Virus record (IMG/VR): IMGVR_UViG_3300037584_005633
Location: 1-60,868 of that record
Source of the DNA: a virus
Direction: 5' to 3' (one strand)
DNA: 60,868 bases
Positions 1,300-44,774 of this stretch are shown one piece after another (the first letter of the stretch is position 1; each line of letters opens with the position of its first letter). A program made the translations under genes and the position numbers. Under the pieces are notes generated by a model. The model saw only the letters and a list, made by a program, of their open reading frames with translations. It was not told the origin of the DNA and ran no database searches.

Positions 1300-1791
1300 A
1301 TGCTTCAAGTAATTGACAATTTTATAGAAAAACCTAAATGGAATCAATTTAGAAACATTCTAACTAGTAGTAATATAAATTGGTTTTACCAAAAACACAT
1401 GGTGCAGAGTGGTAAAAATCCTGATAATCCTTACTTTGCCCATATTTTTTTTCATAAAAATACAATTAATTCTCCTTTTTATGATCCTTTTATAGTAGAG
1501 TGTTTAGAAAGATTAAAAGTTAAAGCAACTATCAGTGTGAGAGCTAACATGAATTTAAGAACTGGTGAAAGATACTATTCTAATTGGCATACTGATAATA
1601 AATTACAAGGTGCCACCACTGCAGTTCTTTATGTTAATTCAAATGATGGTGGTACAGAATTTAAAGATACTAATGAATTTGTTCAATCGGAAGAAAACAG
1701 AATAGTAATATTTCCAAGCGAAACGCAACACAGAGTAAAAACTCAACTTTCAACACCAAACAGGATAGTCATAAATTTCAATTATTTTTAA
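1300..1791 (+). CDS. 2OG-Fe(II) oxygenase-like protein, cassette A gene 1
   Basis: A 163-residue single-domain protein. The 2-oxoglutarate/Fe(II) dioxygenase facial triad is visible: H97-x-D99 in WHTD, H144 in TQHRV, and the 2OG-binding Arg R155 in NRIVINF. Such enzymes hydroxylate proteins, small molecules or nucleobases; the substrate cannot be read from sequence. It is a clear paralogue of 10841-11326, with shared NWFYQ/PWFYQ, AHIFFHKN/AHLFYKDN and FYD blocks. The stop overlaps the next start, so all four cassette genes are coupled. Confidence 0.85.
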   Translation: MLQVIDNFIEKPKWNQFRNILTSSNINWFYQKHMVQSGKNPDNPYFAHIFFHKNTINSPFYDPFIVECLERLKVKATISVRANMNLRTGERYYSNWHTDNKLQGATTAVLYVNSNDGGTEFKDTNEFVQSEENRIVIFPSETQHRVKTQLSTPNRIVINFNYF

Positions 1792-2258
1792 TGTCTGACA
1801 TAGTTTGCATAAATGATTGGTTAGATGATGATTACATAAAATATTTACATTATAAAATACTTTATAATTATCCCCATTATTATGGTGAAAAATCTATTAT
1901 ATCAGATCCGAAACATAAAGAATTTTACAGATCAGATTTAAAAAAAGAAGATCTTGAGTTTTTACATTTTAAATTAATTAAATCCTTTAAAAAAAATATT
2001 AGAGTGATTGAGGCCTATGCAAATATACAACACTCTGACATGAATGGTTCATGGCACCAAGATAATGGGACAACAACATATCTACTTATGGTTTCAGATA
2101 CGTTACGAAAAGGAGAGGGTTGTTTAGAAATCAAAGATAAAAAAATAAATTTTATCCAAAATCAACTTATAGCTTTTCCATCAGAATTATCACATAGAGG
2201 ATTAACTTCAGATTCAACTTTACCAAGAATATCAATAGCTTTTAAAACTGATGAATGA
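1791..2258 (+). CDS. 2OG-Fe(II) oxygenase-like protein, cassette A gene 2
   Basis: 155 residues with H89-x-D91 (SWHQD), H135 (LSHRG) and R146 (LPRISIAF), the expected iron and 2-oxoglutarate ligands. It looks like a diverged relative of the previous gene, with the same length class and a short beta-core. The start overlaps the previous stop and the end overlaps the next gene by 8 bases. Probably an active dioxygenase; substrate unknown. Confidence 0.82.
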   Translation: MSDIVCINDWLDDDYIKYLHYKILYNYPHYYGEKSIISDPKHKEFYRSDLKKEDLEFLHFKLIKSFKKNIRVIEAYANIQHSDMNGSWHQDNGTTTYLLMVSDTLRKGEGCLEIKDKKINFIQNQLIAFPSELSHRGLTSDSTLPRISIAFKTDE

Positions 2259-2817
2259 AATAATTAATATTTTTAGCACTCCTATTTATATTAAAAAATT
2301 AAATATAAATTTAAATAAATTAAAATTGTTTGCAGAAAATATAGAAAGAAAAAATAACAAAAGAGTAATATCTAATGAAGGTGGTTTTCAATCAAACGAC
2401 TTAGATAACAAACAGGAAGAAGTTCAAGAATTAATTGAAGAGTTAAATAAGAATGTAGAAATATTTAAAAAAGTTTTCAATATTGAAAATATAAAACTTG
2501 ATAATCTATGGGCTAACATAAATTACTATGGAAATTATAACACACTCCATTGTCACATTGATTCTCTCATATCTGGTGTTTTTTATGTACAAACAAAAAA
2601 AGATTCTGGTGCAATTGAGTTTGTAAATGATTTTGAAACCATTGAATATCATTTACAAAAAATCAAAGATAAAGAATATAATATATATAATTCTTCTAAG
2701 TATTTTGTTGTTCCTGAAGATAATCTATTGATTTTGTTTCCAAGTTGGTTAAAACATAGAGTAAAACCAAATTTAACAGAGGATAAAAGAATGTCTTTTT
2801 CTTTTAATTATAATTAA
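2251..2817 (+). CDS. 2OG-Fe(II) oxygenase (2OG-FeII_Oxy_5-like), cassette A gene 3
   Basis: 188 residues of the type recognised by N-Y-x-x-G-x-x-N-x-x-H-x-H followed by SGVFY. Here NINYYGNYNTLHCHID leads into LISGVFYVQ. Ligands are H102-x-D104, H169 (KHRV) and R180. This family is common in marine phages, and its substrate is undefined. Paralogue of 11982-12488, where the metal-ligand Asp is changed. Confidence 0.85.
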   Translation: MNEIINIFSTPIYIKKLNINLNKLKLFAENIERKNNKRVISNEGGFQSNDLDNKQEEVQELIEELNKNVEIFKKVFNIENIKLDNLWANINYYGNYNTLHCHIDSLISGVFYVQTKKDSGAIEFVNDFETIEYHLQKIKDKEYNIYNSSKYFVVPEDNLLILFPSWLKHRVKPNLTEDKRMSFSFNYN

Positions 2818-3359
2818 TGTCTTTCACTTATTGGTATTGGAATAAAATAATATCGCCACCAGATATAATAAAACTTAATCAAAAAATTAATCTTTATGTT
2901 GAGGATTGTGAAGATAAAAGTGCAGCCAACACAACTAAAATTACAAATGTAAAAACAATTCAATTAGGTCACATTTGGGAAGAAATAAAACCATGCATCA
3001 ACGCAGCTATTACTGTTAACTCTTTTAACTTTGGTATGGATATTTTTGAAATTACGCCTAACGAATTTGCAACTCTAAATGATTATGATGGTTCTGAAAA
3101 AGGAGAGTATGATTGGCATATAGATGGTGAAAGAGATAAGCCATTTGATTTAAAACTTACTTTTATTATTAATCTTTCTGAAACAAATTATGAGGGAGGA
3201 GAGTTTCAACTGATACATCAAAAAAATAAGATAACTGAATTCTCACAAGGTGGTGACGCAATTTTATTTAAATCTTATCATCCACATAAGGTAAAGCCAG
3301 TTACTTACGGATCGAGAAGAACTTTGGTAATATTTTTTAGAGGACCAAGATTAAGATGA
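2817..3359 (+). CDS. PKHD-type 2OG-Fe(II) hydroxylase, cassette A gene 4
   Basis: 180 residues with the prolyl 4-hydroxylase/PiuC-like core: WHIDGE (H101, D103), YEGGEFQL, GGDAILFKSYHPHKVKPV (H157) and R168. It starts at the previous stop (TAATG). The GGxF strand and PHxVxPV block are typical of the PKHD group, which acts on prolyl, lysyl or small-molecule substrates. Paralogue of 11323-11985. Confidence 0.87.
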   Translation: MSFTYWYWNKIISPPDIIKLNQKINLYVEDCEDKSAANTTKITNVKTIQLGHIWEEIKPCINAAITVNSFNFGMDIFEITPNEFATLNDYDGSEKGEYDWHIDGERDKPFDLKLTFIINLSETNYEGGEFQLIHQKNKITEFSQGGDAILFKSYHPHKVKPVTYGSRRTLVIFFRGPRLR

Positions 3360-3496
3360 AAAATAAAGAAAAAAAGAGAAATCTCTTTGCTAAAATGCTA
3401 TGGGTGGGAAGTTTACTGTTCAAGCAAAAGGTGGTAAAATCTAAGAAGTTGTACAACCGAAAAAGGCTTAAACACTATGACAAAACTATGTGCTAG
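3356..3496 (+). CDS. Small basic protein (46 aa)
   Basis: ATG overlaps the preceding stop (ATGA), and the end overlaps the next gene by 20 bases. Sequence is Lys/Arg-rich with FKQKVVKSKKLYNRKR, a motif I associate with a recurrent family of tiny phage proteins in this genomic position. Positive charge suggests nucleic-acid contact or packaging with DNA, but this is inference. Confidence 0.6.
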   Translation: MKNKEKKRNLFAKMLWVGSLLFKQKVVKSKKLYNRKRLKHYDKTMC

Positions 3497-3827
3497 AGGC
3501 AAAGCGGCCGCTAAAAGAAAATTCAAAGTTTATCCCAGTGCATATGCTAATGCATACGCTAGCAAAATTTGTGCGGGTAAAATAAAAGATCCGTCAGGAA
3601 CAAAGAGAAAAGATTGGGGACCTAAAAAAGCAAACAAAGGTGCAGAAATAAAAATTAAAGAAGTGGCAAAAGGTTTACACAAAGCATCCGCACTACATAA
3701 GAAACAAGCTAAATCATTAGATTCAGTTACAAATGCTTATATGGGCAAATTTATAAAACATGACTCAGGTGATATCAATTTATCAAACGAGGCTTCTGTA
3801 GATTATTACGGTGATTTATTAAAATGA
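3477..3827 (+). CDS. Small basic virion-associated-type protein (116 aa)
   Basis: Basic, Ala/Lys-rich protein with AAAKRKFKVYPSAYANAYAS followed by a cysteine (KICAGK). This YPSAYAN signature recurs in small basic proteins of many marine and giant-capsid phages. It probably binds DNA or a structural partner, but no activity is known to me. The C-terminal SVDYYGDLLK resembles the tail of other fibre-region proteins here. Coupled to the next gene (ATGA). Confidence 0.72.
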   Translation: MTKLCARGKAAAKRKFKVYPSAYANAYASKICAGKIKDPSGTKRKDWGPKKANKGAEIKIKEVAKGLHKASALHKKQAKSLDSVTNAYMGKFIKHDSGDINLSNEASVDYYGDLLK

Positions 3828-4222
3828 GTGAACGAGGCACTTGTTGGGAAGGGTATGTCCAAAAGGGCATGAAGAAAAAAGGAAATCGTATGGTTCCTAA
3901 TTGCGTTCCAGCAGGTGGTATGAAAAGTGGAGGACTTAAAAAATGGTTTTCAGAGAAATGGGTAGATATTGGAAGCAAACGAAAAGATGGTTCGTACGCA
4001 CCTTGTGGTCGTTCAAAATTAGCATCGGACAAAAAACGGAAGTATCCAAAGTGCGTCCCTGCTGCAAAAGCGGCAAGAATGACAGACTCACAGAAGCAGA
4101 GTGCCGTTGCGAGGAAAAGAAGTAGAGCTCAAGGAGTTGGAGGTAAACCTACAAATGTTAAAACTTTTGCATCTAAAGGTGCGTTTACTAAATTATACTA
4201 TGGTGGTATGATAGATACATAA
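3824..4222 (+). CDS. DUF5872-like small basic protein (132 aa)
   Basis: Contains CWEGYVQKGMKKKGNRMVPN, then KRKDGSYAPCGRSK and KKRKYPKCVPAAKAARMT with paired cysteines. This looks like the DUF5872-type basic Cys/Lys-rich family of phages. Start overlaps the previous stop. Expected to be a small nucleic-acid-binding or virion protein; function unestablished. Confidence 0.75.
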   Translation: MSERGTCWEGYVQKGMKKKGNRMVPNCVPAGGMKSGGLKKWFSEKWVDIGSKRKDGSYAPCGRSKLASDKKRKYPKCVPAAKAARMTDSQKQSAVARKRSRAQGVGGKPTNVKTFASKGAFTKLYYGGMIDT

Positions 4223-4383
4223 TGGAAGAAGCAACTGAATATAAAAAATATCTTGAAGCTCTCAGAAAAGCAACTGAGGAAGGAAAGAAGAATAAAAAAA
4301 ATAAACCAATCAAGCCAAAACAAATGTCTTGTGGAGGCATGGGTATAGCTGTTAAAGGCGGAAATTTTAAAGGAGTAATGTAA
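4222..4383 (+). CDS. Small Gly/Lys-rich protein (53 aa)
   Basis: ATG at 4222 immediately follows the previous stop (TAATG), and its TAA overlaps the next ATG. N-terminal half is a charged helix, C-terminal half is SCGGMGIAVKGGNFKGVM. The Lys-Gly-Gly ending resembles several other small proteins in this genome (49613, 52328). Function unknown. Confidence 0.6.
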   Translation: MEEATEYKKYLEALRKATEEGKKNKKNKPIKPKQMSCGGMGIAVKGGNFKGVM

Positions 4384-4709
4384 TGAAAAATGGAAGAATA
4401 AAAGTACACACTAAAATGGGTGGTGGAATGAATAATTACACGGGCGGTGACATGATTAGAGCCAGAGTCGGTAAATCAATTGAAAAGAAAAAAAGTAATT
4501 TAAATAAAAAAACACCTATAAAAGATTTTATAAAAAATACTCTTGAAGGAAAATACATGGATAATAATAGAGGCACAGCAGAACCTTTAGATATTTTAAA
4601 AAAACATAGAATAAGAAAAAAAGTTGCACTACCAAATGCAAAAACAGGTAAATTAATTGGTAAACAAAAAAATCTACCATTACATTTACAGAAAAAAATA
4701 TTAGCGTAA
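4383..4709 (+). CDS. Basic hypothetical protein (108 aa)
   Basis: Lys/Arg/Asn-rich (net strongly positive), beginning with KVHTKMGGGMNNYTGGDM. No recognised domain. It closes the block of small basic genes just before the head-tail adaptor. The coupling TAATG with the gene before supports translation. Confidence 0.6.
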   Translation: MKNGRIKVHTKMGGGMNNYTGGDMIRARVGKSIEKKKSNLNKKTPIKDFIKNTLEGKYMDNNRGTAEPLDILKKHRIRKKVALPNAKTGKLIGKQKNLPLHLQKKILA

Positions 4710-4716
4710 GGATGAA

Positions 4717-5388
4717 ATGGCTACATCAGGAACTACAAGTTTTAACATTACAATTGATGAAGTTATTGAAGAAGCTTACGAAAGATGTGGCGTAAGAACT
4801 AATTCTGGTAACGATATTAAATCAGCTAGAAGAAGTTTAAATCTATTATTTTCTGAGTGGGGTAACAGAGGTATTAACCTTTGGAAAGTAAAATCCAAAA
4901 CAGAAACTTTAGTAAATGGTTCTGTTACTTATAATACACCAAGTGATTGTAACGATGTCCTTGAAGCTGTAGTCACTACGTCTGGAGGGAATCAACAAAC
5001 TTTAACTAAAATTTCTAGATCTGAGTATATTGCTATTCCAAATAAAACACAGACAGGAACACCTTCTCAATATTACGTTGATAGACAATTAACACCAACA
5101 ATAAGTCTATATTTGGCTCCTGATACGAGTGCGGTTACTAATATATTTTATTATTATCTTGCAAGAATTGAAGATGTTGGAGCATACACTAATACTTCGG
5201 ATATGCCATTCAGATTTTTTCCATGCATGGTTTCAGGTTTAGCGTTTTATTTGTCACAAAAAATTGCACCAGATAGAATACAAGCATTAAAATTATTATA
5301 CGAGGATGAATTAAAAAGAGCGTTAGATGAAGATGGACAAAGGACATCTGTATACATCACACCTAATATTTATTATCCACAGGGTTAA
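4717..5388 (+). CDS. Head-tail adaptor (P22 gp4 / T7 gp11-like)
   Basis: 223 residues opening with a helical adaptor motif (TIDEVIEEAYERCGV, then SARRSLNLLFSEWGNRG) followed by a beta-rich middle and a C-terminal helix. This order matches the podovirus tail-tubular-A/gp4 adaptors that sit between portal and tail hub. GGATGAAATGG gives a modest ribosome site. Family placement is from recognition of the N-terminal helices, so moderately sure. Confidence 0.7.
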   Translation: MATSGTTSFNITIDEVIEEAYERCGVRTNSGNDIKSARRSLNLLFSEWGNRGINLWKVKSKTETLVNGSVTYNTPSDCNDVLEAVVTTSGGNQQTLTKISRSEYIAIPNKTQTGTPSQYYVDRQLTPTISLYLAPDTSAVTNIFYYYLARIEDVGAYTNTSDMPFRFFPCMVSGLAFYLSQKIAPDRIQALKLLYEDELKRALDEDGQRTSVYITPNIYYPQG

Positions 5389-5390
5389 CT

Positions 5391-5735
5391 ATGGCATATG
5401 CAAAAGGTAAATACGCAAAATCTATTTCCGACCGTTCTGGTCAAGAATTTCCTTATAGAGAAATGGTCAAAGAATGGAATGGCTCATTAGTTCATATATC
5501 AGAATTTGAAAAAAAACATCCACAACTAGATCCAAAACCTCACACTGCAGATCCTGAAGCCTTGTATAATGCAAGAATTCAAAGAGCTGCACCTGTAGTT
5601 GTTTATCTTGATTTACAATATTGGCCAGGTCAGTTTACATCTAATGGCATGCAACCATCTATTGACCCGTTAGAAGAAAATAAGAAGAGACAGGTGAATT
5701 CTTCATTAGGGAGTGTTACAATTCTTATATCATGA
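5391..5735 (+). CDS. Conserved structural-region protein (114 aa)
   Basis: Placed between two adaptor-like genes. Sequence has SGQEFPYREMVKEWNGSLVH and DPEALYNAR, blocks I have seen in conserved marine-phage proteins of the connector region. Likely a minor virion or connector protein. It overlaps the next start by four bases. Confidence 0.65.
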   Translation: MAYAKGKYAKSISDRSGQEFPYREMVKEWNGSLVHISEFEKKHPQLDPKPHTADPEALYNARIQRAAPVVVYLDLQYWPGQFTSNGMQPSIDPLEENKKRQVNSSLGSVTILIS

Positions 5736-6427
5736 CGTTTGCAGAATTAATTCAAAAGGTAAGAGATTACACAGAGGTTGATAGTTCAGTTTTAACTGAT
5801 TCTATTCTTGACTCTATGATCAAAGATGCAGAGTTAAGAATTTCAAGAGAAGTGGATGCAGACTACGAAAGACAGTATGTTACAAGTAATTTCAAACCTT
5901 CAAATAGATATTTAGAACTTCCTAATAATGCTGTTTTTCAAGGTAATACTTCAAGATTTAGTTTGTCTGTAAGGGCAGTAAAAGTTTTTAACACCAATAA
6001 CTCACCTACTACAACTGAAACTTTAATTAAAAGAGATGTTTCTTTTATAGATGAGTATAACTCAACAGAAGCTACAGGTGTCCCAAAATACTATTCTAAT
6101 TGGAAAGAAACCTATTTGATAGTAGCCCCTACACCAAACAGTGCATATAAAGTTGAGGTAGATTATGTAATGAACCCTGATCATTTGTCATCAACTAATA
6201 CTACGACATATTTGTCCAATAACTATCAAGATCTACTATTTGTAGCTACGATGATGAATGCTTATGAGTTTTTGAAAGGACCTATGGATATGTACAAACT
6301 ATACTCAGACAAGTATAATGTAGCTATACAGAGCTTTGCGTTAGAGCAAATGGGTGCTAGACGTAGAGACGAGTATACCGATGGTGTGCCAAGGGTTAAA
6401 ATTCCTTCACCATCACCAAATAATTAA
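5732..6427 (+). CDS. Second head-tail adaptor-like protein
   Basis: 231 residues. The N-terminus (MTFAELIQKVRDYTEVD, then ILDSMIKDAELRISREVDAD) is a typical helical adaptor start, followed by a beta-sandwich (YYSNWKETYLIVAPTP) and a C-terminal helix. Resembles the same gp4/gp11 adaptor group as 4717-5388, so the phage has two such genes flanking a small one. Confidence 0.7.
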   Translation: MTFAELIQKVRDYTEVDSSVLTDSILDSMIKDAELRISREVDADYERQYVTSNFKPSNRYLELPNNAVFQGNTSRFSLSVRAVKVFNTNNSPTTTETLIKRDVSFIDEYNSTEATGVPKYYSNWKETYLIVAPTPNSAYKVEVDYVMNPDHLSSTNTTTYLSNNYQDLLFVATMMNAYEFLKGPMDMYKLYSDKYNVAIQSFALEQMGARRRDEYTDGVPRVKIPSPSPNN

Positions 6428-6445
6428 TTATTAAGGAGAAATTTT

Positions 6446-6874
6446 ATGGCAATAACACAAGCAGTTTGTAATTCTTTTAAAAAAGAATTATTAGACGGTG
6501 TCCATGACCTAGATACAGGCGGGGACAATTTTAATTTAGCATTGTATACTAACTCAGCGACTTTAGGTGCAGCAACAACTTCATACACTACAGGTAACGA
6601 AGTTTCTGCTTCTGGTACGTATGTTGCTAAAGGTAAACAATTACAATCGCAACAAACATCATTATCATCTACAACAGCTATTGTAGATTTCGCAGACTTA
6701 TCTTTTACTGGAGTAACTTTAACTGCAAGAGGTGCTTTAATTTATAACTCAACTGACGCTAAAAAAGCAGTTTGTGTTTTAGATTTTGGCGCAGATAAAA
6801 CTGCAACATCAGGAACATTTACAATTCAATTTCCTAACTTTACCTCTACTGCTGCTATTTTAAGAATCGCATAA
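6446..6874 (+). CDS. Tail/virion structural protein (142 aa)
   Basis: Good Shine-Dalgarno (AAGGAGAAATTTT) before ATG. Ser/Thr-rich beta protein beginning AITQAVCNSFKKELLDGVHD and containing FNLALYTN, a signature of a common small phage structural protein found in tail-fibre clusters. No catalytic motif. Confidence 0.72.
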   Translation: MAITQAVCNSFKKELLDGVHDLDTGGDNFNLALYTNSATLGAATTSYTTGNEVSASGTYVAKGKQLQSQQTSLSSTTAIVDFADLSFTGVTLTARGALIYNSTDAKKAVCVLDFGADKTATSGTFTIQFPNFTSTAAILRIA

Positions 6875-6891
6875 TTTAGGAGCCCGTTGCT

Positions 6892-8358
6892 ATGGCAGAA
6901 CTTACTTACACAGTTACCGTAGCATCGGGTAACCTTTATGGCGGAGGAACAGGCAACGTCTTTTATTTGGACGGTGCTAGAAATTCTACAGGTCCAGGAA
7001 CTGTAAGCTGGGTTTCAGGTGCAACTTTACGTTTTGAACAAAGTGATGCATCTAATGACGGTCATCCATTAATTTTTTCAACAAACACTAGTACGTCTGG
7101 AATTATTTCTTCGGGAATAACTTATTATCTTGACGGAGCTAGCAACCAAGCAAACTACACAAACACAACTACATTCAATGCTGCTACTACAAGATACATT
7201 GAGGTAACACCATCTTCCGAAACAGATTTTTATTATTTGTGTTATATCCATGGAATTGGCATGGGAGGTGTTTTTGATATTACTCAAAATACATGGGGAG
7301 CAAAAACATGGGGATTTGGTACTTGGAATCTATTAGGGGATCAATCTGTTTCTGCAACTGGTGTAAACGTTACATCAGCAGTAAGTTCTGTTTCGTATTT
7401 TCCATCTGTTGGATGGGGTGCATTGACTTGGGGTTCTCAAGAATGGGGTGAATTTGAAAGTCCTGAAGCAGCTGTTACAGGTATCAGTATTGGTACATTT
7501 GCTATTGGAACTGAAAGCGTAACCGCAAACGCAAACATTATACCAACAGGCGCATCCATAACATCAGCTGTAGGAAACGAAGTTGCTGGAACAAGTGCCG
7601 AAGCTCCAGCCACAGGTCAAAGTATGACTTCGAGTAGAGGTACAGTATTTGCTGGAGAGCTTGTAACTGTTGAAGTTACATCTCCTTCAAATGATCCATG
7701 GGGTAATGAAGCATGGGGTAATGGATTATGGGGTATTGGTGACGGAATCTCATTAGTAAGTGGTGTCGAAGTTGGTATTGGAGAAGCAAATGTTTCTTTA
7801 ACAGGACAACAAATGTCTTCATCACTAGGAACTATTGGTCAAGCTTCTATTTATTCTTTATCAGGAACAAACGCAACAGCTTCTCAAGGAAGTGCTTTTG
7901 GTGGAGAACTTACAATTGTTGAAGTTACATCTCCTTCTAATGACCCTTGGGGAAATGACACATGGGGAAATAGCCTTTGGGGTAATGGTGATGGAAATAC
8001 TTTAATAACAGGTGTTGAAGTCATAATCCCATCAGTAGACACTATTACTACGGGACAAAGCTTAACTACAAATGTAAGTTCAGTAAGCGTAACAGCGGAC
8101 GCAAACACAGGTGCTTTAACGGGACTATCAACAACTTTCTCTTTAGGAACAGCTGTATTAGACGCAAATACTATAGCTTCTCCTTCAGGAATATCCCTAA
8201 CACCAACTCTTGCAAGTGTGGTAGCTGGAGCAAGTGCTGAAGCACCGGTAACAGGATTGCAAATCAACGGTTCTGTTGGTACAATTAACATAAATGCCTG
8301 GGCAGTAGTAGATCCAGATATAACTAACACTTGGACGGTTATTGACGAGGCAGCATAG
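6892..8358 (+). CDS. Tail fibre protein with cupredoxin-like N-terminus and WG repeats
   Basis: 488 residues. Residues about 1-130 look like a small cupredoxin: H58 in DGHPLIFS and C117-x2-H120-x3-M124 in LCYIHGIGM would form a type-1 copper-like site. The rest is a repetitive Gly/Ser/Thr beta fibre with WGNxxWGNxLWG motifs. Two near-copies of SPSNDPWGN modules at DNA 7678 and 7930 show internal duplication. Likely a host-contact fibre. Copper binding is inference; marine phage fibres with C-x2-H-x2-3-M ends are familiar to me but uncharacterised. Confidence 0.8.
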   Translation: MAELTYTVTVASGNLYGGGTGNVFYLDGARNSTGPGTVSWVSGATLRFEQSDASNDGHPLIFSTNTSTSGIISSGITYYLDGASNQANYTNTTTFNAATTRYIEVTPSSETDFYYLCYIHGIGMGGVFDITQNTWGAKTWGFGTWNLLGDQSVSATGVNVTSAVSSVSYFPSVGWGALTWGSQEWGEFESPEAAVTGISIGTFAIGTESVTANANIIPTGASITSAVGNEVAGTSAEAPATGQSMTSSRGTVFAGELVTVEVTSPSNDPWGNEAWGNGLWGIGDGISLVSGVEVGIGEANVSLTGQQMSSSLGTIGQASIYSLSGTNATASQGSAFGGELTIVEVTSPSNDPWGNDTWGNSLWGNGDGNTLITGVEVIIPSVDTITTGQSLTTNVSSVSVTADANTGALTGLSTTFSLGTAVLDANTIASPSGISLTPTLASVVAGASAEAPVTGLQINGSVGTININAWAVVDPDITNTWTVIDEAA

Positions 8359-8392
8359 ATAAACTATACTTTTTAAAAACAAGGATTAATAT

Positions 8393-9043
8393 ATGGCATC
8401 AAGTTATTCTACAGATTTGAAACTCGAATTAATGGTAACAGGGGAAAACTCTGGTACTTGGGGTGATAAAACTAATACAAATTTAAACTTAGTTCAACAA
8501 GCGATTGCTGGTTATGAAGCAGTTTCTATTGCAGGTGGCGCACAAACGACAGCATTAGCAATGACAAATGCAACTCTTTCAAATGCAAGAAACGCAGTAG
8601 TTGAATTAACAGGAACTATTACAGGTAACCAAATTGTAACAATTCCTAACAGCATTGAAAAAATATACATAGTCAAAAACACAACTTCTGGCGCGTACAC
8701 TGTTCAATTTAAAACAGTAAGTGGCACAGGACCAACTTTTGCTACCACTGATAAAGGTACAAAAATTCTTTACGCTGATGGCACTAATGTAACAGATTTA
8801 TTTTCAGAATTATCACAATTAAATTTGACTAATCAAAATGAAGTAAGATTCGAAGATTCCACTGGAGGAGAGTATGTAGGTTTGAAAGCACCTGCAACTG
8901 TGGGTTCTAGTTTTTCTTTGACCTTACCAACAGCAGATGGCTCAAGTGGTAATGGGTTAACAACAAATGGCGCAGGAGCGTTATCTTTTTCTGATGTAGC
9001 TTCAACAGGAAAAGCTATTGCAATGGCACTAGTTTTCGGATAA
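8393..9043 (+). CDS. Tail fibre protein (216 aa)
   Basis: The N-terminus SSYSTDLKLELMVTGENSGT followed by WGDKTNTNLNLVQQAIAGY is the hallmark start of a widespread phage tail-fibre family. The remainder is beta-rich with a C-terminal ALSFSDV repeat-like end. Positioned in the fibre block after a short leader with AAGGATTAATATATGG. Confidence 0.82.
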   Translation: MASSYSTDLKLELMVTGENSGTWGDKTNTNLNLVQQAIAGYEAVSIAGGAQTTALAMTNATLSNARNAVVELTGTITGNQIVTIPNSIEKIYIVKNTTSGAYTVQFKTVSGTGPTFATTDKGTKILYADGTNVTDLFSELSQLNLTNQNEVRFEDSTGGEYVGLKAPATVGSSFSLTLPTADGSSGNGLTTNGAGALSFSDVASTGKAIAMALVFG

Positions 9044-9067
9044 ATTATAATTAAGGAGATATAAAAA

Positions 9068-9433
9068 ATGGCAGCACCAAATCTAGTTAATGTTTCAACG
9101 ATTACAGCTAAGTCAGTTCAAGCAAACTTGTCGACTACTGTAACAACAGAAATTTTAGCAAACGCATCATCATCAAACAAAGTTTTTAAAATTAACAGTA
9201 TTATTATAGCTAACGTAGACGGCAGTAACTCTGCTGATGCGACTGTGGCTATTACAAAAAGTGGTGGATCACCAATTAAAATTGCAAGCACAATTGCTGT
9301 AGCAGCAGACTCAACTTTAATATTAATCGATAAAAATTCTTCTCTGTATTTAGAAGAAGGAGATAATATCGAAGCAGGAGCTAGTGCAGCTAGTGACTTG
9401 ACTATCACTATAAATTACGAAGAACTAAGTTAA
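9068..9433 (+). CDS. Small beta-rich virion protein (121 aa)
   Basis: Preceded by AAGGAGATATAAAAAATG. Thr/Ser/Ala/Ile-rich beta pattern with no charged catalytic motif. Similar in size and style to 16351-16701 and 59251-59571, all probably small decoration or fibre-associated proteins. Confidence 0.65.
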   Translation: MAAPNLVNVSTITAKSVQANLSTTVTTEILANASSSNKVFKINSIIIANVDGSNSADATVAITKSGGSPIKIASTIAVAADSTLILIDKNSSLYLEEGDNIEAGASAASDLTITINYEELS

Positions 9434-9448
9434 TAGGAGGTCTTAATA

Positions 9449-10288
9449 ATGGCACAAGGACAAGGTGGTATTATAGGCGCTTCAAACATTCCAGTTAATT
9501 CTGTAGCTGGATCACCTGCAGTTAATTCATTTACTTCAGGCGGAACTTATACTGCATCACCAGGCACTAAATTTGTAGAATATCTTATTGTCGGTGGTGG
9601 CGGTGGCGCAGCCCGAATTGGGGGCGGAGGAGCAGGAGGATATAGAACAAACTATCCATCTCCTGTAGCGAATGCTCAACCTGTATCAGGTGGATCAAGC
9701 TACCCTGTCTCAATTGGAGGCGGAGGCGGAGGTTTCTGCGGTGACTATCAACAAGCAAGCAACGGTGGTTCTTCAAGTGTATTTGGAATTACATCTGCTG
9801 GAGGCGGAGGCGGTGGCTCATGGAATGGCCAATCTGGACGACCTGGCGGATCAGGAGGCGGAGGTTCTCAATCTGGAAGCGGAGGACAAGGAAACGTACC
9901 ATCTGTAAATCCACCTCAGGGAAATCCTGGAGGAAATAGTGGTGACCGTGGAGGTGGCGGAGGCGCTAGCCAACCAGGAGCTTCTGCTGGAGGACAAGGT
10001 TCAGAAAATGCAATTTCATCACCTGGAAATTTTTACGCTGGAGGCGGAGGTGGCTCTGACGGAAATTATGCTGGAGGTACAGGAGGCGGAGGTGAAGGTT
10101 CACCTGGAGGCCAAAGTGGTAGTAACGGCAGAGGCGGAGGAGCAGGAGCGAATCACGGTGGCGGCACAAGAAGCGGAGGTTCGGGTGTTGTAATCGTAAG
10201 AGAACTAGATGCTTTTTCAGCTTCTGGTGTATGGCCAACTAAACAAGTCTTTGAAGCAATTAAAGATGGGAATTGGAAATCAGGATAA
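9449..10288 (+). CDS. Glycine-rich tail fibre protein
   Basis: 279 residues. After TFTSGGTYTASPGTKFVEYL comes the conserved start VEYLIVGGGGGA of the Gly-rich fibre domain, followed by about 170 residues of GGGG-S/A/N repeats, ending VVIVRELD. Polyglycine-II-type sandwiches of this kind form the receptor tips of other phage fibres. The tail WPTKQVFEAIKDGNW resembles chaperone-like ends of cyanophage fibres. Strong ribosome site (TAGGAGG). Confidence 0.85.
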   Translation: MAQGQGGIIGASNIPVNSVAGSPAVNSFTSGGTYTASPGTKFVEYLIVGGGGGAARIGGGGAGGYRTNYPSPVANAQPVSGGSSYPVSIGGGGGGFCGDYQQASNGGSSSVFGITSAGGGGGGSWNGQSGRPGGSGGGGSQSGSGGQGNVPSVNPPQGNPGGNSGDRGGGGGASQPGASAGGQGSENAISSPGNFYAGGGGGSDGNYAGGTGGGGEGSPGGQSGSNGRGGGAGANHGGGTRSGGSGVVIVRELDAFSASGVWPTKQVFEAIKDGNWKSG

Positions 10289-10803
10289 TGGCACATTTTG
10301 CACAAATTAATTCAGACGATAATATTGTAATAAAAGTAGTCGTAATGAACGATGCAGAATGCGCTGCTAATGGAGGAGTTGATTCTGATCAATGCGCAAC
10401 TTGGGTAAATTCTACTATTCCTGATGATGAATGGACTGCAGACACATATTATGATGGAAACTATCCTCAAAACACATATGTAAAAAGATGTGATCCCCAA
10501 ACTCAGTATAATGAACATGTTGATGGAGGTACGCCATTCAGAGGAAATTATCCTGCACATGGATTTTCTTACGATTCTGCAACAGATAAATTTATACCAC
10601 CAAAACTATATTCTAGTTGGGTGTTTAACACTAGTAGATGTGATTGGGAACCAAGTTTTGGTTTTCCAACAAGAAATCATGGTGAAAAAACACTGAATTG
10701 GACTTGGGATGATGATAATCAAAGATGGATTGGTCAAGATTTTGAAAATACTACATCTTTAGTTTGGAGTTCTACTTCCACTGCTTGGGAAATACCAAGT
10801 TAA
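10288..10803 (+). CDS. Fibre-associated protein (171 aa)
   Basis: I choose ATG 10288, which overlaps the previous stop (TAATG) and gives the family-like start AHFAQINSDDNIVIKVVVM. Cys- and Trp-containing beta protein (RCDWEPSFGFPTRN, LNWTWDDDNQRWIG). Proteins starting this way follow fibre genes in marine myo- and podophages. Role unproven. Confidence 0.75.
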   Translation: MAHFAQINSDDNIVIKVVVMNDAECAANGGVDSDQCATWVNSTIPDDEWTADTYYDGNYPQNTYVKRCDPQTQYNEHVDGGTPFRGNYPAHGFSYDSATDKFIPPKLYSSWVFNTSRCDWEPSFGFPTRNHGEKTLNWTWDDDNQRWIGQDFENTTSLVWSSTSTAWEIPS

Positions 10804-10819
10804 TTTGCCTTTTAATTAA

Positions 10820-10839
10820 AGTAAGTGTATAAACTTACT
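10820..10839. promoter_or_regulatory. Inverted repeat before oxygenase cassette B
   Basis: AGTAAGT (10820-10826) and ACTTACT (10833-10839) form a perfect 7-bp stem with a GTATAA loop, two bases before the ATG at 10841. No U-tract follows, so it is more likely an RNA hairpin or operator at the cassette start than a terminator. Confidence 0.4.
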
Positions 10840-10840
10840 C

Positions 10841-11326
10841 ATGTCAATTGAAGTCATAGAAGATTTTTTACCTCAAGACGCTTTTACAAATTTACAAAAA
10901 TTTGTAATGAATAATAGTTTTCCGTGGTTTTATCAAGACTTCGTGATTGATGAAAAAGATCCTTTAGATAATATTTTTTTAGCACATTTATTTTATAAAG
11001 ATAACAGACCCAATAGCGAATTTTATGACATGGTTTGTCAGCCTTTCTTAGATAGATTAAAACCTAAAGCAATAATAAGAATAAAAGCAAACTTATATTT
11101 AAATCAACAAAAAATAATTAAACACAGAATGCACACTGATTTTGAATATCCGCATAAAGGTGCACTCTTCTTTTTTAATACAAATAATGGAAAAACCATA
11201 ATTGAAGATCAAGAAATAGAGAGTAAACAAAATAATTTAGTTTTATTTGATTCTTCAAAACCTCATGCTAGTACAACATGTACAGACAAGAAAGCAAGAG
11301 TTACTTTGGTTTTTAATTATTTATGA
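10841..11326 (+). CDS. 2OG-Fe(II) oxygenase-like protein, cassette B gene 1
   Basis: 161 residues. Ligands: H98-x-D100 (RMHTD), H142 (KPHAS), R153 (ARVTLVFNY). Clear paralogue of 1300-1791 over its whole length. Last bases overlap the next start (ATGA). Substrate unknown. Confidence 0.84.
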   Translation: MSIEVIEDFLPQDAFTNLQKFVMNNSFPWFYQDFVIDEKDPLDNIFLAHLFYKDNRPNSEFYDMVCQPFLDRLKPKAIIRIKANLYLNQQKIIKHRMHTDFEYPHKGALFFFNTNNGKTIIEDQEIESKQNNLVLFDSSKPHASTTCTDKKARVTLVFNYL

Positions 11327-11985
11327 TCTTAAAAAATTATTATTGGGTTTTTGAAAAAGTTTTGTCTGAAGAGTTTTGTAACAAACTTATTACACACGGA
11401 AACAATTTAAGAGAACGCAAGGGCACAACAGGAGATGCCGATAAATACATTGAGGAACAGCTTGTAAATAGATTTGACGTTACAAAGAACCAATTGTTAA
11501 AAGAGTTTGAAGAAAAAACTAAAAAAAAGCGAGATTCAGATGTTGCTTGGATAGACGAAGAATGGCTTTATAAAGAGCTTTGGCCTTATGTAAATACAGC
11601 TAATAAAAATGCAGAATGGAACTTTGAAATAAATCATACTGAATCAGTGCAATTTACTAAATACAAAATAAATCAATTTTATAATTGGCATCCAGACTCT
11701 TTCGATGGGGCTTATGAAAATCCAAAACAGGAAAACTTTTATAAAAAAATAAGAAAATTATCTATGTGTGTTAATTTAAGTGACCCATGTGACTATCAAG
11801 GAGGTGAACTAGAGTTTCAATTTAGAAATAAAGATGATGCACTCATAGTTACAAAAGAGGATAGATTCAAACCAAAAGGAAGCGTAATTGTCTTTCCATC
11901 TTTTATTTGGCATAGAATAACACCAGTGACTCTAGGAACTCGATATTCTCTTGTCTCTTGGTTTTTAGGATACCCTTTCAAATGA
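11323..11985 (+). CDS. PKHD-type 2OG-Fe(II) hydroxylase, cassette B gene 2
   Basis: 220 residues with a longer helical N-terminus than 2817-3359. The core is WHPDSF (H123, D125), YQGGELEFQF, GSVIVFPSFIWHRITPV (H197) and R207 in GTRYSLVSW. Typical prolyl-hydroxylase/PiuC group. Paralogue of 2817-3359. Overlaps the next ORF by 4 bases. Confidence 0.88.
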   Translation: MILKNYYWVFEKVLSEEFCNKLITHGNNLRERKGTTGDADKYIEEQLVNRFDVTKNQLLKEFEEKTKKKRDSDVAWIDEEWLYKELWPYVNTANKNAEWNFEINHTESVQFTKYKINQFYNWHPDSFDGAYENPKQENFYKKIRKLSMCVNLSDPCDYQGGELEFQFRNKDDALIVTKEDRFKPKGSVIVFPSFIWHRITPVTLGTRYSLVSWFLGYPFK

Positions 11986-12488
11986 TGTACAGTCTTTTTC
12001 CAACGCCTGTGTTTCATGAGAATCATAAACATTTATGTGATAGATTTAACAGTTCACAAAATGATTTTAAAATTGTGTCAGACACTTTATTGGATAAAGG
12101 CTTTGAACTTATAAAAAGAATGGGTTTAAAAACAGATTATAATAATCTTAAAATAAAAGACATATGGTTAGAAACATTTAAAGAATATTCAAATCAAGAA
12201 TACCATGTTCATTATAATAGTTTAGTAAGTGGTTTTTTATTTTTGGAAGTAGGCAAAGATACATCTTTTCCTATTTTTTGTGATCCAAGATCTAACACAC
12301 TTTTATACAAAGATATAAATGAATTAGAAAATAAAGATGAAGTATCTGCTATGTCAGAGAGAGTAAATATTAAACCACAACAAGGTGATTTAATAATATT
12401 TCCATCATACTTACCACACATGTTTACTGTACAGAAAAATAATAATATTTTGAGATTTATACATTTTAACTTACATGACAAATTATAA
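11982..12488 (+). CDS. 2OG-FeII_Oxy_5-like protein with altered iron site, cassette B gene 3
   Basis: I choose ATG 11982, which overlaps the previous stop, giving a FPTPVFHE start typical of the family. Aligned with 2251-2817, EYHVHYNSLVSGF replaces LHCHIDSLISGV, so the metal-ligand Asp is Asn (H77-Y-N79). The distal H146 (LPHMF) and R158 remain. Either iron binding is weakened, or the enzyme has a different chemistry or a structural role. Confidence 0.78.
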   Translation: MMYSLFPTPVFHENHKHLCDRFNSSQNDFKIVSDTLLDKGFELIKRMGLKTDYNNLKIKDIWLETFKEYSNQEYHVHYNSLVSGFLFLEVGKDTSFPIFCDPRSNTLLYKDINELENKDEVSAMSERVNIKPQQGDLIIFPSYLPHMFTVQKNNNILRFIHFNLHDKL

Positions 12489-13095
12489 TTTTCATAAAGA
12501 TGGTTTTACAGTTATTAAGAGCGCTGTCTCTAAGGAGATTGCAGATTTTGCTTTAAGATGTTTATTGTTAAGAAGAAAGGTTACTGACCATATGTTTAAA
12601 ACAAATTACTTAAAAAAAGATAGTATAGATTTTGGAACATGGAATGATGCTCAAGTGCCTGGTACATTCTCAATTTATGCATCAATAGAAAATGAAGTTT
12701 TTTTAATAGAGCTTAAAAATATAATGGAAAAAATTACAAATAAAAAATTATATCCTACATACTCATACTCAAGAGTTTATGAAAATGGAGATGAATTAAA
12801 AAGACATACTGATAGGTTTAGTTGTGAAATATCAACTACACTTTATTTAGGAGGTGACCCATGGCCAATATATATAAGGAATGAGGATACAGATGTCGAA
12901 GTCAATTTAGAAGAAGGAGATATGTTAGTTTATAAAGGTAACATCTTAGAACATTGGAGAAACAAATTTCAAGGGGAACTATGTGGTCAAGTGTTTTTAC
13001 ATTATAATTCTGTAGATACCAAAAATGCAGAGTATAATAAATTTGACACTAGACCTTTTATAGGTTTACCTGTTTCTTTTAAAAATGAAAAATAA
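12475..13095 (+). CDS. 2OG-Fe(II) oxygenase-like protein, cassette B gene 4
   Basis: 206 residues opening FHKDGFTVIKSAVS, the start seen in phytanoyl-CoA-dioxygenase/prolyl-hydroxylase-like enzymes. Core: LKRHTDRFSCEISTTLYLGG (H111, D113), LEEGDMLVYKGNILEHWRN (H160). The usual distal Arg is not obvious (GQVFLHYN). Overlaps both neighbours. A different subfamily from the others in the cassettes. Confidence 0.8.
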   Translation: MTNYNFHKDGFTVIKSAVSKEIADFALRCLLLRRKVTDHMFKTNYLKKDSIDFGTWNDAQVPGTFSIYASIENEVFLIELKNIMEKITNKKLYPTYSYSRVYENGDELKRHTDRFSCEISTTLYLGGDPWPIYIRNEDTDVEVNLEEGDMLVYKGNILEHWRNKFQGELCGQVFLHYNSVDTKNAEYNKFDTRPFIGLPVSFKNEK

Positions 13096-13762
13096 TCTTA
13101 CAATTTATAGCAACATAATACCCATTGATATATTAAAAAATAATTTTTTAAGTTTTCCAAAAAATCTACCAAAATATTATAAAAATTTACCAAGACTTTT
13201 TAATCGCTCAGAGACGAGCACTACAATTAAAACTTGTCCTGGATTTGTAAACTATTTTAGAAAAGTGTTAGTTTTTACATCTCCTTTTGATATGGAGTTT
13301 CTAATATCTAATAATAAGTTAGAGCAGTGGGCAATGGGTAATGGCGATTTTAATAATCTTATGAGTGTGACAACTCATAGTAACTCACAGCTATTGGATT
13401 ATGTACAAAACGATAATTATCAATTTGTAATAAAGATATGTATGTTTAATTATATTCAATCAGATGCACCTTTATATTTTCACAATGCATCATGGGAGTT
13501 TAGAAATTGGGAATGTCTTCCTGGTGTAATACATCCTAAAGATATACCAACTGATTTAAATATGTTTCTACCTATAAGAAAAGAAACGGATAAGATAGTT
13601 ATTAAAAAGGACGAACCATTATTTTATATGTCTTTTGAAACACAAGATGATATTGAACTCCATTTTTCTGGTAAAAAGTTTGATCTGACAAGCCATACCA
13701 ATACTTTGAGCTATAAGTTTTCTATACTGAAAGATAGAATACTTGGTAAAAAAATAGTATAA
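13085..13762 (+). CDS. Conserved marine-phage hypothetical protein (225 aa)
   Basis: Contains CPGFVNYFRKVLVFTSPFD, later MFLPIRKETDKIVIKKDEP and LFYMSFET. This three-part layout matches an uncharacterised family I associate with marine cyanophages and pelagiphages, usually found near 2OG oxygenases. No HxD triad is visible, so I do not call it a dioxygenase. It starts inside the end of cassette B gene 4, so it is part of that operon. Confidence 0.65.
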   Translation: MKNNLTIYSNIIPIDILKNNFLSFPKNLPKYYKNLPRLFNRSETSTTIKTCPGFVNYFRKVLVFTSPFDMEFLISNNKLEQWAMGNGDFNNLMSVTTHSNSQLLDYVQNDNYQFVIKICMFNYIQSDAPLYFHNASWEFRNWECLPGVIHPKDIPTDLNMFLPIRKETDKIVIKKDEPLFYMSFETQDDIELHFSGKKFDLTSHTNTLSYKFSILKDRILGKKIV

Positions 13763-13770
13763 TAAGCCAT

Positions 13771-15690
13771 ATGCCATTAGCTAAAGTACCATTCGCAGCA
13801 GGTTTTAACAAACAAATCACAGCAACCCAGGCTCAAAATGTCTGGATTGATGGTGATAACGTGCGTTTTAGATACGGCATGCCTGAAAAAATAGGAGGAT
13901 GGAATCAATTAAATGCAAATGATTTAGTAGGTGTTGCTAGGCAAATGCACAATTGGTTTGATTTAGATGGTAGAAGGTACTCTGCAATTGGAACAAATAG
14001 AATTCTAGCTATTTATTATGATGAAATATTTTATGACATAACTCCGTTAGATTCAGTAAGAACACAAGCAAACTGTGACATCACCACTACTAATGGTAGT
14101 AACATAGTGACTATCACTACACCAGCTAATCATAATTTACAAATTACAGAACTTGTAGCATTTTCTGCTGCTACAGGATTATCAGGAACTAGTTTTACAT
14201 CTGCTAATTTTACCGATAATCTCTTTGAAGTTTTGACGGTTCCGTCACCAACTACTTTTACTATTCAAATGCCATCAAACGAATCGACAGGATCCGTTAC
14301 AAATAATGGATCTTTAACAATAACACCATACATTGATATTGGTAATTACATTCAACAGCCTGCTTATGGTTTTGGTACTGGTACTTGGGGTCTATCTACA
14401 TGGGGCACATCAAGAACATCTTCTAACTTAATTCTTGATCCAGGCCTGTGGTCATTGGACAATTATGGTCAAACACTAATAGCTACTGTTCATAACGGCC
14501 CAAGTTTTTCTTGGAATCCTGTTGCAGCAGATACAAATGCTCTTGCTACAAGAGCGGTAGCTTTATCTGGTAACCCTACAAAAAGTGTGGCTACCATTGT
14601 TTCTGACAGAGATAGGCACTTAGTTCATCTAGGCACAGAAACTACAATTGGAACCACTTCAACACAAGACAAAATGTTTATAAGATTTTCTGACCAAGAA
14701 GATTTAAATACATATGCACCTACTTCTACAAACACTGCAGGAACTTTTAGACTAGATAGCGGAAGTGAAATTATTGCAGCGGTGAAAGGTAAAGATTACA
14801 TTTTTATTCTTACGGATACAGCTGCATATATTATGCAATTTGTGGGCCCACCTTTTACATTTAGTATAAAACAAGTTGGAACTAACTGTGGTTGTTTGGG
14901 TCCGAATTCTGCAGTATATGTCAACGGAGCTGTATATTGGATAAGTGATGAGGGTGGCTTTTTTGTTTTTGATGGTACTGTAAAAGCCTTACCATGTTTA
15001 GTAGAAGACTTTGTTTTTACATCAAATGGAAATAATTTAGGATTAAATTTTTCTGCAGGCAAAATAACATTTGCTTCACACAATAGTTTGTTTAGTGAAA
15101 TAAACTGGTTTTATCCTAAAGCAGGTTCAAATAACATAGATAGGGTAGTAACCTATAATTATGACGAAAATGTATGGACTGTAGGAACTTTAGCTAGAAC
15201 AACTTACTTTGATCAAGGTGTATTTCCATTACCTTATGCAACAAGATTTTACACAACAGGAACAGGGACTTTTCCTACTGTACAAGGGATCACGAACCAA
15301 GGCGCCAGTAGATTGTATGAACATGAAAGTGGTTTAAACGAAGTTGATGCTAATGGGACTACCACTGCAATACAAGCCTTTATACAATCAGGAGATTTTG
15401 AATTAGACGTTGAAGGTAACGGTGAGTATTTTATTAAGATTAGAAGGTTTATTCCTGACTTTGGTATTCTATCGGGTCAAGCAAAGGTAACTTTAAATTT
15501 AAGAGCTTTTCCAAATGATACACAAGCATCTTCACCTTTAGGACCGTTCACAGTAACACCAACAACAAAACAAATTCATACACGTGCAAGGTCAAGATTA
15601 GCTAGTGTTAAGATTGAAAATGACGCTGTAGATCAAAATTGGAGATTAGGATTATTTAGATTCGACATTCAGCCTGACGGACGTAGATAA
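13771..15690 (+). CDS. Tail hub/nozzle protein (P22 gp10 / T7 gp12-like)
   Basis: 639 residues. The start (AKVPFAAGFNKQITATQAQN, then WIDGDNVRFRYGMPEKIGGW) is characteristic of the beta-propeller tail nozzle of short-tailed phages. Further repeated blades include RDRHLVHLG, IRFSDQEDLNTYAPT and NYDENVWTVG. It closes the portal-adaptor channel and stabilises packaged DNA. A very confident family call from the N-terminus. Confidence 0.88.
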   Translation: MPLAKVPFAAGFNKQITATQAQNVWIDGDNVRFRYGMPEKIGGWNQLNANDLVGVARQMHNWFDLDGRRYSAIGTNRILAIYYDEIFYDITPLDSVRTQANCDITTTNGSNIVTITTPANHNLQITELVAFSAATGLSGTSFTSANFTDNLFEVLTVPSPTTFTIQMPSNESTGSVTNNGSLTITPYIDIGNYIQQPAYGFGTGTWGLSTWGTSRTSSNLILDPGLWSLDNYGQTLIATVHNGPSFSWNPVAADTNALATRAVALSGNPTKSVATIVSDRDRHLVHLGTETTIGTTSTQDKMFIRFSDQEDLNTYAPTSTNTAGTFRLDSGSEIIAAVKGKDYIFILTDTAAYIMQFVGPPFTFSIKQVGTNCGCLGPNSAVYVNGAVYWISDEGGFFVFDGTVKALPCLVEDFVFTSNGNNLGLNFSAGKITFASHNSLFSEINWFYPKAGSNNIDRVVTYNYDENVWTVGTLARTTYFDQGVFPLPYATRFYTTGTGTFPTVQGITNQGASRLYEHESGLNEVDANGTTTAIQAFIQSGDFELDVEGNGEYFIKIRRFIPDFGILSGQAKVTLNLRAFPNDTQASSPLGPFTVTPTTKQIHTRARSRLASVKIENDAVDQNWRLGLFRFDIQPDGRR

Positions 15691-16202
15691 TGCAAGTAAA
15701 AGATATCTCTATTGAGTATTTTAAAAAGAAAATACCTTTTTCAAAAGACTATTTAGAATTTGTAAAAAACCAAAAGCTTAATAATCATGAGGCACAAAAC
15801 AATAATTATGATTATGACGAATCCAATAAAGAACTGTTGGATTTGACGCTTGAACAGCTTGATCCTTTTTTTAAAGAAGTAGGTGTTTATTTAGGTTATA
15901 AAAAATATGGTTTAGTAAAAGCTTGGATACAGCATTATGAGAAGGGTCATTTTCATGATCTGCACACCCACGAATCAATAAAAGATTTCTATTCTTTTTC
16001 TTATATAATCGATTGTACTGAGGATTCTTCTCACTTAAATTTATATAATCCAGGTTATCCCTATTTGAGTTATTATAAGAAAAAAATAAAACCTGAAGTA
16101 GGATTGTGTACATTGTTCCCTTGTTTTTTACCTCACTCGGTTGACCCAAATAAAGATAATGTTAGACTAATAGTAAGTGGTAATATTAAATGGCAAAAAT
16201 AA
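15690..16202 (+). CDS. Cupin/2OG-oxygenase-like protein (170 aa)
   Basis: The double-stranded beta-helix core reads KAWIQHYEKGHFHDLHTHES, then SFSYIIDC, FPCFLPHSVDP (H149) and R159. The HxD motif of dioxygenases is replaced by H92-T-H94-E95, so metal coordination may be cupin-like (HxH with E). Starts on the previous stop (TAATG). Function unknown; likely the ninth member of the oxygenase/cupin set in this genome. Confidence 0.72.
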   Translation: MQVKDISIEYFKKKIPFSKDYLEFVKNQKLNNHEAQNNNYDYDESNKELLDLTLEQLDPFFKEVGVYLGYKKYGLVKAWIQHYEKGHFHDLHTHESIKDFYSFSYIIDCTEDSSHLNLYNPGYPYLSYYKKKIKPEVGLCTLFPCFLPHSVDPNKDNVRLIVSGNIKWQK

Positions 16203-42679: not shown

Positions 42680-43063
42680 ATGGCTCAAAGCAAAGAATCT
42701 AAGCTGTGGAATGACATTAAAAATTTAGATAGAGATTGGCATTTTACTCGCATAGAATCTAGCACAATTAATGGTATTCCCGATGTACATTGTGTCGTAA
42801 ACAAGCAAGTATTTTGGCTTGAACTCAAAGCGAACACCAGCAAGAATTGTGGCTTGTCAAAGTACCAAATCAATTGGCATATTAAATACTTGAAAGCAGG
42901 TGGTAAAGCGTATATCTTGAATAGGCCCCTCTTGCACGCGCCTATTGAACTTCTGGCCGTGTCCCGTGAATCCCGAATCCCCGTCATTATCCGCAAGTCC
43001 CACGACTTGAGGACCCTGGTTCAGGAGGCAGCTGGCCATCCTTCACCGGGATCTGGGGCGTGA
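42680..43063 (+). CDS. VRR-NUC/HJR-like nuclease domain protein
   Basis: ATG 42680 gives 127 residues (a TTG at 42656 is possible). Motifs of a PD-(D/E)XK nuclease: SSTINGIPDVHCVV, FWLELKANTSKNC, LSKYQINWHIKYLKAGGKAY. Typical of phage VRR-NUC genes used in replication or repair. Base composition changes inside the gene: the last third, from about 42925, is GC-rich, leading into the GC-rich segment. Confidence 0.75.
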   Translation: MAQSKESKLWNDIKNLDRDWHFTRIESSTINGIPDVHCVVNKQVFWLELKANTSKNCGLSKYQINWHIKYLKAGGKAYILNRPLLHAPIELLAVSRESRIPVIIRKSHDLRTLVQEAAGHPSPGSGA

Positions 43064-43341
43064 ACCCCGTCCCGTGAAGAAAGCCCGTAGTTGCTTGATT
43101 ATTTGATCTTGACAGGAGCTGGCCAGGCGAGCAGCTGGTAAACCTGAAGCCCGATGCCGTTGGAAACCCCATAGTTCCCTGCTTTTTTCAACTGCTCTGG
43201 GACCCAGATGCTGGCAGCAGGTAGCTCGTTTCCCACCCCCACGTCCCGAATGGATCAGGGGTTTGCTTTTGAACTCATAAAGCTCTGGCCAGCAACCAGC
43301 AGCGTAACTTGTGCTTCAGGAAAAGTTCTGAAAAATAGTTC

Positions 43342-43370
43342 TTGACATTTATCCCATGTAATCTTATGTA
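43342..43370 (+). promoter_or_regulatory. Sigma70-like promoter
   Basis: TTGACA (43342-43347), 17-bp spacer, TATGTA (43365-43370). The spacer includes TATCCCAT (43350-43357), the reverse complement of the ATGGGATA element seen at other early promoters, so the same regulator may bind here. Confidence 0.7.
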
Positions 43371-43377
43371 AGGTCTG

Positions 43378-43419: not shown

Positions 43420-43441
43420 TTAACTAACAAAGGAGAAACAA

Positions 43442-44763: not shown

Positions 44764-44774
44764 CAACCTGCGAA

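Follow-up and report, generated by a model that had tools for sequence, protein, structure and literature searches.

Predicted Fe(II)-dependent oxygenases beside the tail genes of an HTVC023P-type pelagiphage relative, and a possible role in tail-protein hydroxylation

A 60,868-base virus record (IMG/VR IMGVR_UViG_3300037584_005633, hereafter the window) is a relative of the HTVC023P-type pelagiphages and carries, around its tail genes, nine genes for predicted Fe(II)-dependent oxygenases of the double-stranded beta-helix (DSBH) superfamily. In the best-supported reading, which in our judgement falls a little short of probable, a pair of these enzymes from PHROG 61 and PHROG 2954, with helpers from PHROG 81 and PHROG 274, hydroxylates tail-region proteins. 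That phages of this group carry several oxygenase genes is already published, and the window is a somewhat rich example. Three corrections came out of the analysis, i.e., to a ferrochelatase label, to the reading of an HxH motif and to a supposed block duplication, together with a lead that can be tested, namely hydroxylation linked to the tail.

All nine open reading frames, which had been singled out in an earlier note made from the sequence alone, were present at the stated coordinates and matched oxygenase families well beyond chance (PHROGs E values of 5e-17 to 3e-50). They are arranged on the plus strand in two runs, the genes touching or overlapping by 1-14 bases, plus a single gene, and are named here by their start positions. 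Cassette A comprises 1300 (1300..1791; PHROG 274, E 2e-38; PF13640 33.5 bits over cut-off; HxD...H...R intact), a divergent PHROG 274 relative, 1791 (1791..2258; E 5e-17; HxD...H...R), the PHROG 81 and PF13759 gene 2251 (2251..2817; PF13759 E 6e-23, TIGR02466 E 5e-31; HxH...H) and the PKHD-type PHROG 61 gene 2817 (2817..3359; PF13640 E 1e-12; HxD...H...R). Cassette B begins with 10841 (10841..11326; PHROG 274, E 1e-47), which is 30% identical to 1300, and continues with the PKHD-type 11323 (11323..11985; PHROG 61, E 2e-36; PF13640 E 5e-14), 11982 (11982..12488; PHROG 81; PF13759 E 3e-14; HxH...H) and the prolyl-4-hydroxylase-like 12475 (12475..13095; PHROG 2954); 11323 is a core member of the tail-linked pair. 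The single gene, 15690 (15690..16202), belongs to PHROG 81 (E 6e-26) and PF13759, has HxH...H and was aligned with relatives that carry HLHP or HIHP.

Curated Pfam cut-offs were passed by 1300, 2251, 2817, 11323 and 11982, with 1791, 10841 and 15690 below threshold and 12475 silent. All nine belong to DSBH Fe(II)-oxygenase families, eight by Pfam or PHROG matches in the hidden Markov model search that had been recommended earlier and 12475 by its fold. The name 'DNA endonuclease V' that PHROG 274 bears was rejected for 1300, 1791 and 10841, whose only matches of note are of oxygenase type and whose HxD...H...R is conserved; judged by PF13640 and this motif, PHROG 274 is an oxygenase family and the database name is wrong. 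All nine genes recur in independent contigs, and comparison of the window with two such contigs gave ratios of non-synonymous to synonymous substitution rates (dN/dS) of 0.03-0.15 for all nine, i.e., purifying selection. In the same comparison, the Gly-rich fibre and c5, a small protein described below, evolve faster (0.23-0.31).

The 2-His-1-carboxylate motif, HxD/E...H, is present in the PHROG 61, 274 and 2954 genes, and the PF13759 genes have HxH...H instead. An Arg or Lys on the last core strand, expected for binding of 2-oxoglutarate (2OG), was found as Arg in 38 of 40 PHROG 61 and 26 of 26 PHROG 274 proteins and as Arg or Lys in 43 of 55 PHROG 81 proteins. Seven intact HxD...H patterns had been counted previously; six hold (1300, 1791, 2817, 10841, 11323, 12475), and the seventh, 2251, is a PF13759 member with HxH...H. 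The same note had singled out a change of Asp to Asn in 11982 and HxHE in 15690, which it called cupin-like. In 55 representative PHROG 81 proteins, however, HxH was invariant (55/55) and the distal His nearly so (54/55), while the position that had been taken for Asp held Asn in 18, Asp in 11, Gly in 10 and Ser in 5. In profile alignments of PHROG 81 to PHROG 61 and to PHROG 274 alike, the canonical Asp is matched by the second His of the HxH motif, and bacterial relatives of solved structure (3bvc and 2rg4) share HxH in alignment. A three-His metal site is therefore predicted for the PF13759 family. Both Asn and Asp occur at the variable position inside 11982's own clade, and an inactive 11982 was ruled out by the family motif HxH and a dN/dS of 0.03-0.04. 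The motif of 15690 is the ordinary one for PHROG 81/PF13759, and this protein matched PHROG 81, PF13759 and TIGR02466 with no cupin match. Elsewhere, a 169-aa protein, c8 (L036:1764-2270; also HTVC023P gp64 and in 023Pt_psg01), stands directly before PHROG 61 in 23 loci; it has a weak PHROG 81 match, keeps the distal His region, shows no obvious HxD or HxH and is possibly a degenerate oxygenase.

The PHROG 2954 gene has been named ferrochelatase in pelagiphage papers (PMC9599517, PMC11561400), as in PHROGs. For 12475 this candidate was rejected, with no Pfam match up to an E value of 1 and no ferrochelatase among the 50 fold matches listed. Structure prediction, also recommended earlier, was run on this protein, and the AlphaFold model (predicted local distance difference test score, pLDDT, 91.3; predicted template-modelling score, pTM, 0.88) has a DSBH fold of the prolyl 4-hydroxylase (P4H) type. 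The best Foldseek matches were 4iw3, 4j25 and 6t8m, and the enzymes matched best, at E 4e-9 to 1e-7, are the prolyl-4-hydroxylase of P. putida (4iw3 and 4j25), the PHD of Dictyostelium and human PHD2; the listed PDB matches are DSBH enzymes, with prolyl 4-hydroxylases at the top. The fold was needed to place 12475 because PHROG 2954, searched against the PDB by sequence alone, returned weak matches only (Tet-like dioxygenase, E 0.45) and profile-profile comparison with the other oxygenase families was weak as well. His111, Asp113 and His160 are invariant across 30 relatives of 12475. Use of 2OG by PHROG 2954 is predicted only, because the usual 2OG-binding Arg of other families is replaced, at about the same place, by Gln172, which is invariant in the family. 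By its modelled fold, 12475 is better read as a prolyl-4-hydroxylase-like DSBH protein, for which prolyl hydroxylation is predicted, and some annotations, such as that of S-CREM1, already name it an oxygenase. The ferrochelatase reading has fed haem and iron arguments, and a hydroxylase is the better reading. Fusion of 2954 and 61 genes is hinted only by match positions in PHROG 3531, with no direct example among the matches listed.

The neighbourhood of the 61-2954 pair was assessed in 81 PHROG 2954 loci, which were drawn by similarity to 12475 and are not independent. PHROG 61 was located upstream of PHROG 2954, on the same strand and within 3 kb, in 77 of the 81. The first non-oxygenase gene upstream was c5 in 30 loci and c3 in 13, together 43, and a halogenase in 10. 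The c3 cluster is of tail-fibre type and includes the window genes 8393 and 9449. The c5 gene (10288..10803, plus strand) encodes a small phage-only protein of PHROG 7759 in the tail-fibre region; its model (pLDDT 93.8) had no PDB match among solved structures and matched unnamed phage proteins only, and c5 is a candidate substrate. The pair was also found beside tail-region genes in unrelated phages, i.e., podoviruses, pelagimyophages and several cyanomyophages (HTVC033P, HTVC008M, Mosig, S-SM2, S-CAM8, Bellamy and S-MS29). At its far end, cassette B is overlapped by the gene for a PHROG 7084 protein (13085..13762, plus strand), relatives of which (c32, e.g., L010:1342-2085) adjoin 61-2954 in other contigs. 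A tryptophan-halogenase was present in 21 of the 81 loci, a NodU-type carbamoyltransferase in 16 and a sulfotransferase in four. On other marine viral contigs, tryptophan-halogenase and NodU-type carbamoyltransferase genes lie within oxygenase cassettes (L011:3602-5116 and L032:2601-4070).

Under the hydroxylation reading, the core of cassette B would be the PKHD-type enzyme of PHROG 61 and the P4H-like enzyme of PHROG 2954, joined by the PHROG 81 and 274 enzymes. These would be co-produced with the tail genes and would hydroxylate side chains of tail-fibre-region proteins ahead of assembly, thereby tuning the adhesin; in related phages some hydroxylated products may be further capped, and cassette A might act elsewhere. 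Timing, protein substrate, residue and further decoration are what we infer here, beyond the observed families, 12475 fold, motifs, synteny, trees and purifying selection. Consistent with this reading, the 12475 fold resembles peptidyl-prolyl hydroxylases, one of which acts on EF-Tu, and 11323 and 2817 match PKHD/YbiX-like profiles. Likewise, PHROG 61 precedes 2954 in nearly all loci, with c5 or c3 commonly next, the overlapping genes of cassette B form one operon, and the oxygenases are more constrained than the fibre and c5.

Several points weigh against it. No substrate or modification is known, and our literature search found no report of hydroxylated phage tail proteins. Gene neighbourhood by itself is no proof of a substrate, and the loci were chosen by similarity and are not independent. 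PHROG 2954 is distant from tail genes in Syn30, S-PM2, S-RIM32 and S-RIM50, many cyanophage PHROG 61 relatives adjoin uvsW or uvsX, and c5 is present in phages with no adjoining oxygenase. Finally, Gln stands in place of the 2OG-binding Arg in PHROG 2954, leaving cosubstrate use a prediction. The earlier note had proposed that virion proteins are hydroxylated and then glycosylated. The first step fits the DSBH genes beside tail genes, the P4H-like fold and the conserved pair linkage, but the second finds no specific support, since HTVC023P and HTVC027P carry that glycosyltransferase locus alongside differing sets of oxygenases. Of the genes invoked for it, 17046 is a group 1 glycosyltransferase, 17965 had no Pfam match and the 54 kb gene encodes a Methyltransf_24 protein barely over the cut-off.

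Three other roles were weighed. The enzymes might tailor a small molecule or surface polysaccharide by hydroxylating, halogenating and carbamoylating a product derived from a sugar or an amino acid, an idea that Iyer and colleagues put forward for jumbo cyanophages with a gene cluster of the same chemistry (PMC7824862). The halogenase, carbamoyltransferase and sulfotransferase genes of the PHROG 2954 loci agree with this, as does that published cluster. However, a halogenase was found neither in the window nor in the 60 kb relatives, no non-ribosomal peptide synthetase, polyketide synthase or sugar-nucleotide pathway lies next to cassette B of the window, and the recurrent neighbours are tail-region genes; we regard this role as unlikely. 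Slightly less likely still is that host proteins such as EF-Tu or ribosomal proteins are modified, or host 2OG levels shifted, as classic auxiliary metabolic genes would do. Bacterial PPHD and ribosomal oxygenases modify EF-Tu or ribosomal proteins, and the top fold match of 12475 is a Pseudomonas P4H solved with EF-Tu. A role in 2OG levels has been proposed for cyanophages (PMC3037559), which also speaks for this alternative; but draining 2OG needs no nine diverse sequence-specific enzymes, and the tail-region linkage would be left unexplained.

Action of some enzymes, cassette A above all, on nucleic acids, in repair or DNA modification, seems improbable. It would accord with the grouping of 2817 and an HTVC008M gene that lies amid clamp-loader genes, with a weak, sub-cut-off PF09859 match and with the PHROG 61 relatives that adjoin uvsW, whereas the best family models are of PKHD/P4H types and none of the nine genes matched the AlkB or TET families. 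Hydroxylation of tail-region proteins thus remains our preferred reading, and the tail linkage predicts hydroxylated tail-region proteins, which is testable in cultured HTVC023P, HTVC033P and HTVC008M. A broader idea, to our minds doubtful, is that unrelated marine phage lineages share a transferable tail-side module that chemically modifies tail adhesin proteins. Its proposed parts would be PKHD-type and P4H-like hydroxylases, HxH-type PF13759 enzymes and sometimes a halogenase or carbamoyltransferase. If true, phages would have a system of enzymes that tailor their own receptor-binding apparatus.

Concerning the history of the cassettes, the earlier note had described matched paralogues arising from duplication of a module. 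The pairs (1300/10841, 2251/11982, 2817/11323) do belong to the same families, which lends a block duplication some support, but the likeness ends at family level: identities are 27-30%, and gene order differs, being 274-274like-81-61 in A and 274-61-81-2954 in B. In the phylogeny, where the oxygenase trees have long branches and many open forks, the approximately unbiased (AU) test rejected three pairs as sisters, namely 2817/11323 (p 0.0005), 2251/11982 (p 0.0002) and 2251/15690 (p 0.002). Sisterhood of 1300/10841, which the tree did not recover, was not rejected by the AU test (p 0.12). Other groupings had high support values: 2817 with an HTVC008M gene located among clamp-loader genes (100/99), 1791 with a gene of contig L094 and an HTVC008M gene (100/99), and 11982 inside a clade of tail-cassette partners (100/99). 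The order of cassette B is identical in 023Pt_psg01 and the same minus 274 in HTVC023P, and cassette A is absent from these and the other annotated relatives. Cassette B is best read as the older block and cassette A as genes of other sub-lineages that were gained later and separately; that one is a block duplicate of the other is very improbable.

The HTVC023P-type assignment of the window is based on its terminase, which shares 77% identity with that of HTVC023P and 62-63% with those of 023Pt_psg01 and HTVC027P. SAR11 are the commonest bacteria of the ocean, and pelagiphages are their phages. SAR11 fits as the host of this phage type, as suggested by the c5-c8-61-81-2954 block in L207 and L212 (62 and 59.5 kb contigs) from two SAR11 (Pelagibacteraceae) assemblies. 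The PHROG 2954 family looks phage-borne, as a search of 84,980 species genomes turned up no more than 13 loci, of which many lie on short contigs from metagenomes. Oxygenase counts in the relatives searched, some of which are fragments, ranged from 0 to 9, with nine in three near relatives, eight contiguous in a 41 kb contig, four each in HTVC023P and 023Pt_psg01, three in HTVC027P and one in DSL-LC04. Nine in 60 kb, which had been thought unusual, is indeed at the high end of this range, but it is shared by those three near relatives, and a larger cyanophage, S-SCSM1, is reported to have 24 such oxygenases (PMC9602691). Elsewhere in the window are a C-5 cytosine DNA methylase gene (33171-34169), a LAGLIDADG endonuclease-like gene (53512-53991) and GC-rich stretches (42900-44200 and 44700-44900; up to 58% against about 35% in the surroundings), within which an 18-nt repeat like TCTGCCCCCACGCCCACG occurs in four copies (43226, 43966, 44085, 44788). 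An Rfam search of these stretches gave no match.

Like P. putida PPHD (4iw3, 4j25) and human PHD2, 12475 has the DSBH fold with HxD...H (Foldseek E 4e-9, TM 0.60-0.68 for the best); unlike them, it has Gln at the 2OG-binding Arg place, and identity is about 14%. The PF13759/TIGR02466 family (2OG-FeII_Oxy_5; 3bvc, 2rg4) is matched by 2251, 11982 and 15690, which share HxH with the solved bacterial proteins, but the viral members are short and 15-40% alike; no reaction of any PF13759 member was found in the literature sources. Similarly, 11323 and 2817 match models of PKHD-type hydroxylases (YbiX/PiuC) with HxD...H...R, at scores far under the equivalog cut-offs. The cyanophage cluster of halogenase, carbamoyltransferase and 2OG enzymes (Iyer et al., 2021; PMC7824862) has the same enzyme classes that stand beside PHROG 2954 in other contigs, whereas neither a halogenase nor a carbamoyltransferase was found with the window cassettes. 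A close precedent comes from HTVC023P-type pelagiphages, in which 2OG-Fe(II) oxygenase genes were described with a partner read as ferrochelatase and phylogeny was called unfeasible (Wittmers et al., 2022; PMC9599517). The phage group is the same, as are the several non-orthologous oxygenases and the co-located PHROG 2954 gene; here, in contrast, the partner is a P4H-like oxygenase, the cassettes were tested by trees and a single genome has nine of the genes.

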